Assembly: GCA_949296115.1 (NCBI GenBank)
Contig: CASFNR010000008.1
Location: 1-49,281 of the forward strand
Direction of reading: 5' to 3'
Length of the DNA stretch: 49,281 nt
Source: an uncultured Eubacteriales bacterium
GTDB taxonomy: Bacteria > Bacillota > Clostridia > Oscillospirales > Oscillospiraceae
A program made the translations under genes and the position numbers. This document shows, one piece after another, positions 3,657-49,281 of the stretch. The first letter of the stretch is position 1. Every line of letters starts with the position of its first letter. A model generated the notes under the pieces. The model searched no databases. It was given only the letters and a program-made list of their open reading frames with translations, and was not told the origin of the DNA.

Positions 3657-4508
3657 TTATTCTCCGAAAAACAGCCGGATTTTTTCCTGAATATCCGTAT
3701 TTCGGAGCCATACAATGTTGAATTCCCGGACGATGGCGTCCCCCCGGATGGAAAACTGTCCCAGCTCCGGCTCGCTGTCCGCCAGCACCTTGTAGACAAA
3801 GGAAACCCCGATGCCGCTTTTCACCGTTTCCAGAATCAGCTTGAAGCTGGAAATGCAGATATTCCGCCGGAAGTGAAGGAAGGATTCATTGTAGCCAAGC
3901 AGCTTCTGCTCCAGGATAGCCCGGGTGCCGGAGCCCTTCTCCCGATGGATGATGGTTTCCTCCAGCAGCTGGCTCAGGGTGATTTCCTTTCCGGCAAATC
4001 GATGGTCCTTATGGCAGATGCCCACAAAAGGCTCCCGGCGCAGGCATCGGCTGTTGTAATGATTTTTGTCGAAATATCCCTCCACAATGGCAAAATCCAG
4101 CCGGTTCTCGTCCAAAAGGTGGAGCAGGCGCTCCGTATTGTCCACGATCATCGTCAGGGAATTGGCCTCCTTCTCCAGATACCGCTGGACCTGGGCGTTG
4201 ATGACAAAATCCCCGATGGTTTTGGTTGCGCCCACACGCAGCTCATACATTCGGTTGTTGCGCAGCTGCCGCCGGATGTCCGTGTCCTGACTGCGCATGG
4301 ACAGGGCGTACTGCTCCAGCATCTGGGCGGCGGGGGTTTTCAGCAGGTTCCGGTTCTGGTAAGTAAACAGCTTGCACCCATACTCCCGCTCCAGGAACTG
4401 GATATGCTGGGTTACGGCAGGCTGGGATATGTGCAGCATCTCCGCCGCCTTGTGATAGCTCAGGGTCTCGCACAGGGCAAGAAAGGTATCCATCCGATAA
4501 TCCAGCAT
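3657..4508 (-). CDS. LysR family transcriptional regulator of the sulfite reductase/siroheme locus
   Basis: 283 residues with a typical N-terminal helix-turn-helix (residues 5-60, containing AEMLHISQPAVTQHIQFLE) and a C-terminal effector-binding domain. GSGTRAILEQKLL and VKSGIGVSFVYK match the ligand pocket seen in CysL/CysB-like and related LysR proteins. GGGAGG lies 5 nt before the ATG. It is transcribed divergently from the CoA-disulfide reductase/sulfite reductase gene, and its own promoter overlaps the divergent one across a 21-bp palindrome, so it probably regulates itself and the reductase. The siroheme synthase gene follows in the same operon. The effector is unknown; a reduced-sulfur or nitrite-related signal is only an inference from context. 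Confidence 0.9.
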   Translation of the reverse strand: MLDYRMDTFLALCETLSYHKAAEMLHISQPAVTQHIQFLEREYGCKLFTYQNRNLLKTPAAQMLEQYALSMRSQDTDIRRQLRNNRMYELRVGATKTIGDFVINAQVQRYLEKEANSLTMIVDNTERLLHLLDENRLDFAIVEGYFDKNHYNSRCLRREPFVGICHKDHRFAGKEITLSQLLEETIIHREKGSGTRAILEQKLLGYNESFLHFRRNICISSFKLILETVKSGIGVSFVYKVLADSEPELGQFSIRGDAIVREFNIVWLRNTDIQEKIRLFFGE

Positions 4509-42978: not shown

Positions 42979-45075
42979 TCAGCGGACGCTGTAAAGCAGC
43001 GCCCCATAGGTCGGGAAGGGCCAGTATTTTTCGGCAGTCTGGGTTTCCGCTTCGTCCGCCACAGCCCGCAGGGAAGCCATCTTGCCCAGGATTTCGTCCC
43101 GGATCTTCTCCGACTCCCGAATGGTGTCCGTACAGGCGCTTACTTCCATGACACCGGCCTCCAGTTCGTCCGTGCAGATGGCAATCTGGTCCGTCAGCAC
43201 AGACAGTTTCCGCAGCAGGCCGGACTCATAACCGCAGGATATATCCGCCGCAGCCGCACGCTTGGCGGCAATGGTTCCGGCCAATTCGGAACAGTACCCC
43301 TCCACAGCAGGAAGAATCTGTTTTCTTGCCATATCCACCATGGTGTTGGCTTCAATGATTACCGTTTTGCAGTAGTTTTCCAGCATAATCTCACAGCGGC
43401 TGTGAAGCTCCGCTTCGGAGAAAACCTTGTGGCTGGTGAGCATTTTCACATTTTTCTCATCCAGCAGGTGGGGCATGCAGTCCGGGGTGGTGGGATAGTT
43501 GGACAGGCCCCGGACCTCTACCGCTTCCCTGATCCAGGCATCATCGTAGCCGTTGCCGTTGAAGAGGATGCGCTTGTGGTCCTTGATGGTCTTTTTGATC
43601 ATCTCGTGCAGAGTGGTTTCAAAGTCCCTGGCGTTCTCCAGTCGGTCTGCGTAGATGCGCAGAGACTCCGCCACCGCCGCATTGAGCATCATGTTGGCAC
43701 AGGCAATGGAGTTGGAGGAGCCCAGCATCCGGAATTCAAACTTGTTGCCGGTAAAGGCAAAGGGGGACGTCCGATTCCGGTCCGTGGTATCCCGGGCAAA
43801 CCGGGGCAGCACATCCACCCCCAGCTTCATGGTGGTTTTCCGGGTGCCCTCGTAGGGACGATCCTCTTCGATTGCGCTGAGGATGGCGGAGAGTTCATCT
43901 CCCAGGAAGATGGATACCACAGCGGGAGGGGCTTCGTTGGCGCCCAGCCGGTGATCGTTGCCCGCCGTTGCCACGGACAGCCGGAGCAGGTCCTGGTAGT
44001 CGTCCACCGCCTTGATAACGGCGCACAGGAACAGCAGGAACTGGGCGTTTTCATAGGGCGTCTCGCCGGGGGACAGCAGGTTCACGCCGGTATCCGTGGC
44101 AATGGACCAGTTGTTATGCTTGCCGGAGCCGTTGACCCCGGCGAAGGGCTTCTCATGGAGCAGACACACCAGCCCATGCTTCGCCGCAACCTTCTGCATG
44201 ATCTCCATGGTCAGCTGGTTGTGGTCCGTGGCCACGTTGGTGGTGGTGTAAATGGGTGCCAGCTCGTGCTGGGCGGGAGCGACCTCATTGTGCTCCGTCT
44301 TGGCCAGTATCCCCAGCTTCCACAGTTCTTCGTTCAGATCCGCCATGTACGCCGCCACCCGGGGCTTGATGACGCCAAAGTAGTGGTCATCCATTTCCTG
44401 GCCCTTGGGCGCCTTGGCTCCGAAGAGGGTGCGGCCGGTATAAACCAGATCCTTGCGTTTCTCATAGAGTTCTCTGGTAATCAGGAAATATTCCTGCTCC
44501 GGCCCCACGGACGTGCGAACACACTTCACGTCATCGTTGCCAAACAGCTTCAGAATCCGCATGGCCTGGCGGTTCAGGGCCTCCATGGAACGCAGCAGCG
44601 GGGTTTTCTTGTCCAGCGCCTCACCCCCGTAAGAGCAGAACGCGGTGGGAACGCACAGCGTCTGACCTTTGATAAAGGCATAGGAAGTGGGGTCCCAGGC
44701 GGTATAGCCTCTGGCCTCAAAGGTGGCCCGGAGGCCGCCGGAGGGGAAGGAACTGGCATCCGGCTCGCCCTTGATCAGTTCCTTGCCGGAGAAGTCCATA
44801 ATCACGCCGCCATCCGGGGCCGGTGAAATGAAACTATCGTGCTTTTCCGCCGTAATACCGGTCAGCGGCTGGAACCAATGGGTATAGTGGGTCGCACCAT
44901 GGGCAACCGCCCAATCCTTCATGGCAGCAGCCACCACGTTCGCCACGGAAAGATCCAGCTTTGCCCCCTGATCGATGGTCTTTCTCAGGGACTGATATAC
45001 CTCTGCGCTGAGGCTGGCTTTCATCACCCGGTCATCAAATACCAGACAGCCAAAGTAATCCGAAACAGTACCCAT
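42979..45075 (-). CDS. glnN: Glutamine synthetase type III
   Basis: 698 residues, the large GSIII class. Signatures: [39 protein letters not shown], the metal/ammonia region [59 protein letters not shown], and [16 protein letters not shown]. It forms glutamine from glutamate and ammonia. The ATG at 45075 has a weak GGAG-type site about 8 nt upstream. Its leader contains an ANTAR-type hairpin overlapping a terminator, and a back-to-back promoter with glnA. Confidence 0.97.
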
Positions 45076-45112: not shown

Positions 45113-45151
45113 AAAAAGGCGCCTTCGAGCCTATTGCTCAAAGACGCCTTT
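45113..45151 (-). terminator. Attenuator terminator in the glnN leader
   Basis: 16-bp stem (45151-45136 with 45130-45115; two G-U pairs), 5-nt loop, then TTTTTCTGTTTTATTTT. It begins about 8 nt after the transcription start, so most transcripts should stop before glnN unless antiterminated. Confidence 0.85.
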
Positions 45152-45194
45152 GCCTTATGGGACGCATTCTACACCAATGATTTCCATTTGTCAA
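45141..45194 (-). promoter_or_regulatory. glnN promoter and ANTAR-type hexaloop hairpin
   Basis: TTGACA (45194-45189), 17-nt spacer, TAGAAT (45171-45166). The RNA starts near 45159. The hairpin AAGGC-AAAGGC-GUCUU (45156-45141) has loop A1 and G4, and its loop and 3' arm are part of the terminator's 5' arm, so the two folds exclude each other. Confidence 0.75.
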
Positions 45195-45230
45195 CACCCT
45201 GCACAAAAAAAGTTTTTGCCTTTGGATACA

Positions 45231-45259
45231 TTGACAAAACGGCCCTGATCTGCTACACT
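45231..45259 (+). promoter_or_regulatory. glnA promoter
   Basis: TTGACA (45231-45236), 17-nt spacer, TACACT (45254-45259). It is divergent from the glnN promoter, with the two -35 elements 36 nt apart. Confidence 0.85.
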
Positions 45260-45264
45260 GTTCT

Positions 45265-45284
45265 TGTGAGCAAAGACGTTCACA
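45265..45284 (+). promoter_or_regulatory. ANTAR-type hexaloop hairpin in the glnA leader
   Basis: UGUGAGC-AAAGAC-GUUCACA: seven base pairs (one G-U) and a hexaloop with A at position 1 and G at 4, beginning at the expected 5' end of the RNA. It overlaps the terminator's 5' arm. Confidence 0.75.
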
Positions 45285-45327
45285 CCCGGGTTCTGTCCTG
45301 TTTGGGGTGTGGTTCTTTGCCTTTTTT
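45270..45327 (+). terminator. Attenuator terminator in the glnA leader
   Basis: GCAAAGA (45270) pairs with TCTTTGC (45314), and CACACCC (45281) with GGGTGTG (45305), followed by CTTTTTTC. It competes with the hexaloop hairpin. The remaining leader to 45433 holds no gene. Confidence 0.8.
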
Positions 45328-45433: not shown

Positions 45434-46642
45434 ATGAACTATACACCCCAGGAAGTGATGCAGTACATCCAGGAAGAGGACGTGAAATTCATCCGTCTGG
45501 CCTTCTGTGACTGTCTTGGCCGCCAAAAAAACATCTCCATCATGCCCCAGGAACTGGAGCGTGCTTTCAAATACGGCATCTCCCTGGACGCCTCCGCAAT
45601 CGCCGGATTCGGGGATGAAGCCCACTCTGATCTGTTCCTCCACCCGGACCCCTCCACCATCATGATTCTGCCCTGGCGGCCGGAGCACGGCAGAGTGGTG
45701 CGGATGTTCTGCTCCATTACCCATCCTGACGGCGCGTTATTTCCCATGGACACCCGGAGCATCCTCAAGCGGGCAATCCAGGATGCCGCCGACGCAGGAT
45801 TCACCTTTGCCTTTGGTTCGGAAATGGAATTTTACCTGTTCAAGCTGGACGAGCAGGGAGAACCCACCAAGACACCCTACGATCACGCCTCCTACATGGA
45901 CGTCTCTCCAGAGGATAAGTGCGAAAATGTGCGACGGGAAATCTGCCTGACCCTGGAAAAAATGGGAATTCAGCCGGAATCCTCCCACCACGAGGAAGGT
46001 CCGGGGCAGAACGAAATCGACTTCCGTTATTCGGATGCCCTTACTGCGGCTGACAACGCCATCACCTTCTGCACCGTGGTAAAAACCATTTCCGCCCGGA
46101 ACGGACTGTGGGCCGACTTCTCCCCCAAGCCCCTTCCCGGGGCCCCGGGAAGCGGGTTCCACATCAACATCTCTGTGCGGGGCGACAGGCCGGATGCCAT
46201 GCAGCACATGATGGCAGGCATCATGAACCGGGTTGCAGAAATTACCCTGTTTCTGAATCCATCCGAGCAGTCCTATCGCCGTCTCGGATCTCACAAAGCC
46301 CCCAAATACATCTCCTGGTCCAGCAATAACCGGTCCATGCTGATCCGCATTCCCGCCGCTTCCGATGAGTACCAGCGGATGGAGCTTCGATCTCCGGATT
46401 GCAGCGCCAATCCTTACCTGGCCTTTGCGCTGCTGATCTGGGCAGGCCTGGAGGGACTGGAGCAGCAGATGCCCCTTTCCCAGTCCTCCAATGTGAACCT
46501 GTTCACAGCCGCTCAGCATGATGTTTCCAACCTGCAGTCCCTCCCCCTCTCCCTGGCTGCTGCCTGCCGCTGTGCGGAGCAGAGCGCTTTTCTGCAGGCC
46601 CACCTGCCGCAATCCTTGATCGACTATTTTCTGGCAAAATAA
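45434..46642 (+). CDS. glnA: Glutamine synthetase type I, short form
   Basis: 402 residues, shorter than the usual 440-470 of GSI. Motifs: GSEMEFYLFKL (metal), HHEEGPGQNEIDFRYSDAL, WADFSPKPLPGAPGSGFHINISV (ATP/glutamate), YRRLGSHKAPKYISWSSNNRSMLIRIP, and ELRSPDCSANPYLAFALLIWAGLEG. The adenylylation-loop tyrosine segment of enterobacterial GlnA is not evident, as expected for the Firmicute-type enzymes. The ATG at 45434 has a weak AGCAGG site; the frame is open upstream without homology. It is followed 33 nt later by the ANTAR regulator, and its leader is an ANTAR-type attenuator. Confidence 0.93.
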   Translation: MNYTPQEVMQYIQEEDVKFIRLAFCDCLGRQKNISIMPQELERAFKYGISLDASAIAGFGDEAHSDLFLHPDPSTIMILPWRPEHGRVVRMFCSITHPDGALFPMDTRSILKRAIQDAADAGFTFAFGSEMEFYLFKLDEQGEPTKTPYDHASYMDVSPEDKCENVRREICLTLEKMGIQPESSHHEEGPGQNEIDFRYSDALTAADNAITFCTVVKTISARNGLWADFSPKPLPGAPGSGFHINISVRGDRPDAMQHMMAGIMNRVAEITLFLNPSEQSYRRLGSHKAPKYISWSSNNRSMLIRIPAASDEYQRMELRSPDCSANPYLAFALLIWAGLEGLEQQMPLSQSSNVNLFTAAQHDVSNLQSLPLSLAAACRCAEQSAFLQAHLPQSLIDYFLAK

Positions 46643-46675: not shown

Positions 46676-47257
46676 GTGGTGTTCCGGGAGCAGACATACA
46701 GCGTCCTGGTGGTTTCTGCGCCAAAATTCTTCGAAAGCGTCTCCCCCATGCTCCCCAGTTCAGAGTACGACCCGGTGTGTGCCGTCACCAGCGCTGCCGC
46801 AGCCCGGCGGGAGCTTCTGGAGCGCTCCTTTGATTTCATTTTAATCAGTGCCCCTCTATCTGATGAATTCGGCACCCGGTTTGCCATTGACACAGCCAGG
46901 CGCACAGACTGCGTTGTCCTGCTGCTTGTCCGGGGTGACGTCTATGAAGAGGTATCCGCAAAAGCTACAGTTCACGGCGTATTCACCCTGTCCAAGCCCA
47001 CCCCTTCCCTTCTCCTGCAGCAGAGCCTGAAGTGGATGGCGCCCGCCAGGGAACGGCTGCGGAACCTGGAGGAAAGAGCCACCTCCGTCGAAGAGAAAAT
47101 GGAGGAAATTCGCTTGGTTAACCGGGCAAAATGGCTTCTGATTGAGCACCTGAAAATGACCGAGGCGGAAGCGCACCGCTACATTGAAAAGCAGGCCATG
47201 GATCGCTGCATATCAAAAAAAGAAATTGCATCGGGAATTATTAAAACCTACCAATGA
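46676..47257 (+). CDS. ANTAR-domain antitermination regulator with a receiver-like domain lacking the phospho-Asp
   Basis: 193 residues. Residues 1 to about 115 follow a receiver fold, but the phospho-acceptor segment is FDFILISAPLSDEFG instead of ..LLD..MP, so phosphorylation is unlikely. A coiled linker (ERLRNLEERATSVEEKMEEIRLV) leads to the C-terminal ANTAR RNA-binding helices: NRAKWLLIEHLKMTEAEAHRYIEKQAMDRCISKKEIASGII. ANTAR proteins bind hexaloop hairpins in leaders and prevent terminator formation. It starts with GTG (AGGAGG 7 nt upstream), 33 nt after glnA. Target hairpins are present in the glnA, glnN and asnB leaders, so it probably antiterminates them; a signal through glutamine synthetase itself is possible. 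Confidence 0.9.
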   Translation: MVFREQTYSVLVVSAPKFFESVSPMLPSSEYDPVCAVTSAAAARRELLERSFDFILISAPLSDEFGTRFAIDTARRTDCVVLLLVRGDVYEEVSAKATVHGVFTLSKPTPSLLLQQSLKWMAPARERLRNLEERATSVEEKMEEIRLVNRAKWLLIEHLKMTEAEAHRYIEKQAMDRCISKKEIASGIIKTYQ

Positions 47258-49177: not shown

Positions 49178-49186
49178 CTATCATGT

Positions 49187-49281
49187 TGGCATTACCTATC
49201 TTCCCGGGCAGTCGCCCGCCAAGTATTGTCGGCGCATGTGAGCTTAACTTCTGTGTTCGGGATGGGAACAGGTGGACCCTC
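49187..49281 (-). rRNA. 5S ribosomal RNA, 3' part (5' end beyond the window)
   Basis: The minus strand reads ACCTGTTCCCATCCCGAACA and then AGAAGTTAAGC, the conserved loop of bacterial 5S rRNA, followed by GCGCCGA and a GGTAATGCC-type 3' stem. The 5' about 25 nt are outside the window; the exact 3' end is approximate. Its position suggests the end of an rRNA operon running off the window. Confidence 0.92.

Follow-up and report, generated by a model that had tools for sequence, protein, structure and literature searches.

Single-hexaloop leaders of the divergent glnN and glnA genes of an uncultured Eubacteriales bacterium as probable ANTAR antiterminators

The RNA targets of ANTAR proteins studied so far are built from two hairpins. 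Ramesh (2012; PMC3369931) defined the ANTAR target as two hairpins, P1 and P2, and showed that deletion of P1 abolished the induction of eutP. The tested eut, nasF and amiE leaders carry both hairpins (PMC3369936, PMC3369931), and antitermination by EutV requires both (PMC3369931, PMC8934654). Walshe (2022; PMC8934654) reported that the EutV dimer contacts one hexaloop and that the minimal binding motif is a single hexaloop, while two hexaloops are still required for antitermination. The same paper allows for single sites where the timing of the polymerase is irrelevant, names EutX and mycobacterial RNAs as possible single-hexaloop targets, notes exceptions to the dual motif among mycobacterial targets, and calls for bioinformatic work. 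The control of glutamine synthetase (GS) by ANTAR proteins is already known: NitR, an ANTAR regulator of Clostridium saccharobutylicum, is reported to induce GS/GOGAT genes on nitrogen limitation (Stutz 2007, cited in PMC6316151), ANTAR control of GS/GOGAT genes has been suspected in C. thermocellum (PMC4676874), and glutamine synthase genes are listed among the dual-motif hits of Ramesh 2012 (PMC3369931). The pairing of regulator and target is therefore not new. AmiR has a pseudo-receiver (PMC3369931, PMC8934654) and NasT works with a ligand-sensing partner, NasS (PMC3795266).

We analyzed a stretch of 49,281 nucleotides from an uncultured Eubacteriales bacterium (contig CASFNR010000008.1; the window). 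An earlier note, made from the letters of this DNA, had proposed that the leaders of two divergent genes, glnN and glnA, both fold as ANTAR-type antiterminators. The sequence reading places glnN, encoding a type III glutamine synthetase, on the minus strand (42979..45075; Pfam GSIII_N 1.1e-79, Gln-synt_C-ter 1.8e-40) and glnA, encoding a 402-aa GSI-like protein, on the plus strand (45434..46642; Pfam Gln-synt_N/C), with the two leaders between them. The ANTAR gene that the note had placed after glnA was recovered as a PF03861 match at 46676..47257 on the plus strand.

The glnA leader has a predicted sigma-70-type promoter (45231..45259, plus strand), read from the sequence and from an alignment of 31 leaders, with the -35 element TTGACA at 45231-45236, a 17-bp spacer and the -10 element TACACT at 45254-45259. 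The predicted transcription start at about 45266 leaves 0 nt before the candidate antiterminator hairpin, GUGAGC[AAAGAC]GUUCAC (45266..45283), which has a single hexaloop, AAAGAC (45272-45277), with A at position 1 and G at position 4 (A1 and G4). The intrinsic terminator (45270..45327) has its stem at 45270-45320 and a U-tract of six Ts at 45322-45327, and its 5′ arm takes in most of the hexaloop. On the minus strand, the glnN leader has a predicted promoter at 45166..45194 (TTGACA at 45189-45194, a 17-bp spacer, TAGAAT at 45166-45171; again from sequence and the 31-leader alignment), with a predicted start at about 45159, 3 nt before the hairpin AAGGC[AAAGGC]GUCUU (45141..45156). Its single hexaloop AAAGGC (45146-45151), likewise with A1 and G4, is contained in the 5′ arm of an intrinsic terminator (45113..45156) with the U-tract at 45113-45117. 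The hexaloops that the note had described, closed by C-G and then G-U, are thus present in both leaders.

The minimum free energy fold of both leaders is the terminator, at -22.9 kcal/mol for glnA (z -2.85) and -28.6 kcal/mol for glnN (z -6.16). Forcing the hairpin gives -16.0 and -10.4 kcal/mol, a cost of about 7 and 18 kcal/mol, respectively. By itself, the glnA hairpin folds at -7.6 kcal/mol and the glnN hairpin is weak (-3.1 kcal/mol). These energies indicate that hairpin and terminator are mutually exclusive, with the terminator as the default. Because hexaloop bases lie inside the 5′ arm of the terminator, termination would be prevented if a protein kept hold of the loop.

Two covariance models were used, R1 built from the 31 aligned leaders including both window leaders, and R2 built from 29 relatives with the window sequences left out. 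R1 matched the glnN leader with 49.6 bits and the glnA leader with 37.9 bits; in the bacterium's own genome, a 2.4 Mb assembly rated 89.6% complete, its top three matches were the leaders of glnN, glnA and the glutamate synthase gene gltB, in that order. R2 ranked the glnN leader first (E 5.8e-6), an unrelated site second (E 0.0016), the gltB leader third (E 0.007) and the glnA leader fourth (E 0.012). The glnN leader is clear by itself; that of glnA is less so and draws support from its context. The gltB leader (C30:20198-20254), which lay outside the training set, consists of AAGAGC[AAAGGC]GUUCUU plus a terminator and represents a third target in this genome.

Like the dual-hexaloop targets of EutV upstream of eutP, these leaders have an A1/G4 hexaloop closed by C-G and then a pair ending in U, a hairpin that is exclusive with a T-tailed terminator, nitrogen genes downstream and an ANTAR protein encoded in the genome. 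Unlike them, each window leader shows a single hairpin, located at the predicted start of transcription, in place of P1 and P2 in tandem with a short linker. The label 'ANTAR-type' thus holds for the loop, the closing pairs and the exclusive terminator, but not for the tandem arrangement.

The earlier note had suggested a covariance search of related genomes and had stated that homologous leaders without the conserved loop or terminator would refute the proposal. R1 found the leader in 68 of 150 genomes of the family. The search yielded 130 matches, and 127 hits after the removal of three repeated sites (two in locus L108, one in L071); these hits represent 126 distinct sites, as one repeat (L107, equal to L083) remains, and leave out locus L090 and 12 of the loci L106-L183. 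A hairpin with an overlapping T-tailed terminator was present in 121/127 hits, versus 1/16 weak control hits in the own genome, and automatic loop choice found A1 in 115/127 and G4 in 122/127. At the variable loop position 3, 90% of the covered leaders have a base that pairs with the terminator arm, compared to a mean of 50% and a maximum of 59% in shuffled controls; for all six loop bases, 94% pair with the terminator arm versus 79% in shuffled sequences.

The stem of the 31 aligned leaders exchanges G-C for A-U and other pairs, with 52 cells showing changes on both sides compared to at most 15 in slid controls, in rows preselected for their stem. Because of this preselection (stem of at least 4 bp, A1, G4, C-G closure, promoter and ORF), stem pairing percentages are partly built in. 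The identity of the U in the second closing pair lay outside the selection, and U is present in 31/31 leaders, opposite A or G. We also read 17 glnN upstream regions gathered by synteny with the motif unused, and found an A1/G4 hexaloop in 15/17 and a G1/G4 hexaloop in 2/17 (L057 and L072); the pattern [AG]C[ANNGNN]GU is present in 14/17, and L060 combines A1/G4 with a G-C closure. A scan for promoter plus terminator, with no loop requirement, returned 57 rows, many with the same hexaloops, and the 31 aligned leaders were drawn from this material. A G at loop position 1 with G4 kept was seen in L142, L165, L175 and L035 as well as in L057 and L072, and these leaders, as read, challenge A1 as an absolute rule.

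Within the 150 family genomes, 90 have a PF03861 match, and 88 of these 150 sampled genomes gave a match to the window ANTAR protein. The leader is present in 57/90 genomes with an ANTAR gene versus 11/60 without (Fisher odds ratio 7.7, p 5e-8). At the R1 threshold used, 33/90 ANTAR-positive genomes are without the leader, and the 11 leader-only genomes compare with about 5.5 predicted from incompleteness; among these 11, G038 carries a truncated ANTAR homologue (E 4e-23). In genome G049 (of the same genus as the window, labelled 99% complete), a leader (L162) precedes purC and no ANTAR match was found. We fetched 55 ANTAR neighborhoods (L032-L086, a chosen subset of the 88 ANTAR-positive genomes), in which glnA, often with glnN or asnB, stands beside the ANTAR gene; no glnA match lies nearby in 9/55. 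Among the best 80 of 544 named loci, which were picked by ANTAR similarity alone, therefore lean towards close relatives, and cover at most 6 kb on each side of the ANTAR gene, 33 loci together contain 52 leaders detected by R1, which agrees with the family survey. Across the class, 81/291 genomes, in many families, gave a match with an E-value of at most 0.001. The hexaloop is seen in 18/19 new class loci inspected, as expected for model matches; one locus near a contig end (L199) had the wrong register and was left unread. The class loci precede genes that we take to be gltB-like, gdhA, carA, glnN, glnA and genes for NAD synthase and a class II tRNA synthetase. Given the co-occurrence of leader and ANTAR genes, the conserved A1/G4 and closing pairs, and the covariation of stem and terminator, ANTAR-type antitermination of glnN and glnA is well supported by comparison.

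The genes downstream of the 127 hits, taken as the first ORF with a ribosome-binding site and left uncurated, are glnN (43), gltB or gltB-like (24), glnA (19), pyrG (10), amt (4), purF (3), gdhA (3), guaA (2), purC (2), PPDK_N-like (2), and carA, asnB, antar and CP_ATPgrasp (1 each), with 5 others and 6 hits without an ORF. The summed classes place 111/127 hits before ammonium or glutamine genes or antar. Ten representatives were checked with Pfam, which identified glutamine amidotransferase domains in the pyrG, guaA, purF, carA, asnB and gltB-like products; the genes named purC and full-length gltB are presumably those, from their sequences. The earlier note had named an ammonia-assimilation pair as the regulated unit. 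Both glnN and glnA indeed have leaders, but the enzymatic role of GlnA is doubtful, with a Lys in its flap, and the regulon is wider: as judged from the leaders, it includes gltB in the own genome and pyrG, purF, guaA, carA, asnB, gdhA and amt in relatives.

We consider it quite probable that the leaders are single-hexaloop ANTAR antiterminators located at the transcription start, with termination as default and read-through held by the ANTAR protein. The nascent RNA would by default fold as terminator, including the hexaloop bases, and transcription would stop within about 60 nt. The active ANTAR protein encoded behind glnA would bind the A1/G4 hexaloop and hold the small hairpin, which would keep the loop bases from the terminator and allow the transcription of glnN, glnA(-antar) and gltB. 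The signal is probably low glutamine, and it probably reaches the ANTAR protein via a partner, for which the altered GS-like GlnA encoded next to it is the likeliest candidate; we favor signaling through a partner because the receiver looks unphosphorylatable and no PII protein was found in the 89.6% complete assembly.

The two-hairpin architecture of the tested eut, nasF and amiE leaders raises the alternative that these are standard dual-hairpin targets, with a start further upstream and a P1 that was overlooked. In one of the 17 glnN leaders (L079, upstream of glnN at 3874 on the minus strand), the hexaloop hairpin is preceded at about 15 nt by an extra pentaloop hairpin, possibly a degenerate P1 or an intermediate between the dual and the single type of site. 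Yet a TTGACA-17-TATAAT-like promoter is aligned in 31/31 leaders, and a predicted start at the hairpin leaves no space for P1. The median distance from predicted start to hairpin is 3 nt, and a gap of at least 17 nt occurs in 0/121 leaders with terminator, a set selected for spacing because R1 contains the promoter and therefore finds promoter-proximal hairpins. In the 17 glnN regions chosen motif-free, a script placed the promoter 4-17 nt before the best hairpin in 16. Several of these best hairpins are the terminator itself or tetra- and pentaloop readings, as bases 1 and 6 of the hexaloop can pair, and the count supports the spacing more than the loop size. The pick in L036 is not credible; its hexaloop is off the promoter and belongs to a second, downstream terminator unit. 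Between hairpin and U-tract, 4/121 leaders have a candidate second A..G.. hexaloop. We regard an overlooked P1 as quite improbable.

A different objection accepts the switch and assigns it to another reader, either a small molecule, as in a riboswitch, or another RNA-binding protein, which would fit the leaders found in 11/60 genomes without a PF03861 match. Rfam families tried for the leader region gave chance matches only, with no credible family (the best, a snoRNA model, reached 21.4 bits where its gathering score is 88), and a hairpin of 18 nt seems too small for a metabolite pocket. The strong co-occurrence with ANTAR genes, their linkage at the locus, and A1/G4 and closing pairs that match those of EutV targets (PMC3369931) also speak for an ANTAR reader, and we regard any other reader as improbable. 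It is very improbable that the leaders are plain constitutive attenuators in which the hairpin is an unregulated accident of the terminator 5′ arm. Any GC-rich terminator arm can fold locally, and both window leaders default to the terminator, but this explanation accounts neither for the conservation of A1 and G4, the compensatory stem changes and the set of downstream genes, nor for the difference in terminator frequency between hits and control promoter hits.

The protein that would hold the single hexaloops has a C-terminal ANTAR domain (PF03861, 59.2 bits versus a cut-off of 27.3, E 3.4e-16); the 2.4 Mb, 89.6% complete assembly gave no other PF03861 match. Its nearest solved relatives by profile matches are Rv1626, EutV and AmiR, and the nearest named relatives among the matches listed are from metagenome-assembled Clostridia, Oscillospiraceae among them, with 'Candidatus Faecousia intestinavium' as the best of those listed (76% identity). 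The N-terminus is a degenerate (pseudo-)receiver. Its acidic pair is Ser-Ala in the window, and two acidic residues were found in 0/50 aligned ANTAR proteins (L083 and L084 have one, and L047 is uncovered there). At the phosphoacceptor position, 58, the window protein has Ser, while Asn occurs in 37/50 and Asp in 7/50 proteins; Asp is present in 4/7 rows without adjacent glnA versus 3/40 with adjacent glnA. The window protein thus lacks the acidic pair and phosphoacceptor Asp of phospho-regulated REC-ANTAR proteins such as EutV and Rv1626, and we rejected phosphorelay control on the basis of these residues. This differs from EutV, the receiver of which is phosphorylated. We compared the RNA-contacting positions of EutV (numbering from PMC8934654) by a correspondence of our own, drawn from the profile matches. 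All 50 homologues retain the residues aligned with K149 and E160, and 49/50 that aligned with M172, whereas the position of the G4-contacting R142 is Ile in 35/50, that of the stacking residue Y164 is His in 47/50, as in AmiR, and that of R168 is Glu in 44/50.

The window GlnA scores 322.9 bits against TIGR00653, under the cut-off of 429.15. We aligned 45 of 47 glnA hits from the fetched loci and the window (two were dropped for length or stops), of which 37/45 encode proteins of 389-411 aa. The flap VPGYEAP of a solved GS becomes G-x-x-KAP and reads GSHKAP in the window. At the position of the flap Glu, 36/45 proteins including that of the window have Lys, 6/45 have Glu (L040, L080, L083-L086) and 3/45 have other residues; Lys is also present in 77/77 glnA hits of the best 80 of 544 named loci. 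The Ser53 position of the DGSS loop is Ala in 36/45. The combination of flap Glu and DGSS loop expected of an active type I glutamine synthetase is absent from the window GlnA. We take the flap Glu to be the catalytic E327 of GS, and most metal-ligand motifs are kept, so that loss of activity is a prediction. In L035, L042 and L047 the GS-like neighbors have changed metal-ligand motifs too, as expected for a non-catalytic role.

Of the 45 aligned glnA genes, 39 from the fetched loci plus that of the window lie at most 125 nt upstream of the ANTAR gene. The distance is at most 130 nt in 74/77 named loci with glnA (best 80 of 544), and in the remaining three the contig ends within 115 nt of the ANTAR gene. 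Two other GS-type genes are present in the own genome, the window glnN and a 708-aa frame at C1:169075. No PII match was found in the 89.6% complete assembly, in which 13/14 controls were positive, and PII was rejected as the sensor on this basis. Because Lys replaces the flap Glu in the window GlnA and in most relatives, this protein may serve in sensing and not in catalysis. The degenerate receiver, the altered adjacent GlnA and the lack of a PII match lead to the hypothesis that GlnA is the sensor for the ANTAR protein, and suggest, without proof, a GS-like sensor paired with an ANTAR protein as in AmiC-AmiR.

In AmiC-AmiR and NasS-NasT, too, an ANTAR protein is gated by a ligand-sensing partner, but the candidate partner here would be GS-like. 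In Bacillus, glutamine synthetase acts on the nitrogen regulator TnrA (PMC6316151). The putative pair described here resembles GS-TnrA in that a GS-type protein would act on a nitrogen regulator; it differs in combining an altered GS-like protein with an RNA-binding regulator, where Bacillus has an active GS and a DNA-binding regulator. The resemblance to the NitR/glnA system of C. saccharobutylicum (PMC6316151) lies in an ANTAR regulator with GS/GOGAT targets. An antisense RNA is reported for that system, and its available description does not mention targets of the GSIII or amidotransferase type.

More tentatively, we consider it possible, though less likely than not, that in many Clostridia a glutamine-sensing pseudo-GS gates a pseudo-receiver ANTAR protein that reads single 5′-end hexaloops and so controls a glutamine/ammonium regulon of GS, GOGAT, Amt and the amidotransferases for CTP, GMP, purine, carbamoyl-phosphate and asparagine. 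One hexaloop would suffice in such a system because the protein would encounter it directly after the polymerase has initiated. Antitermination by a single hexaloop looks new, as does the breadth of the regulon: in the open-access literature searched, we found neither single-hexaloop antiterminators nor ANTAR control of pyrG nor a GS-like ANTAR partner mentioned. The leaders provide a large natural set of single hexaloops before terminators, from many families of one class, and their position makes the question of one versus two hexaloops directly testable on a short template (about 65 nt). With such a regulon, these bacteria could balance the supply of glutamine against its use in a simple way, and a concrete sensor candidate is at hand in the altered GS gene beside the ANTAR gene.

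Three further observations concern the sites themselves and the window. Several leaders, for example those in L045, L053, L064 and L187, have two single-hexaloop hairpin-terminator units in series, about 60-145 nt apart, before one gene. A 5S rRNA gene identified by Rfam (49184-49281, minus strand) runs off the contig end. The fourth R1 match in the own genome (L090; C1:211254-211312, minus strand), which is the second-best match of R2, has a weak hexaloop hairpin without a terminator and was not counted as a target. Here a hexaloop-like hairpin (ACAGGC) lies between a promoter and the ribosome-binding site, directly ahead of the latter, of a gene that we take to be cytidylate-kinase-like, and the site could be one acting at the level of translation or a chance match.
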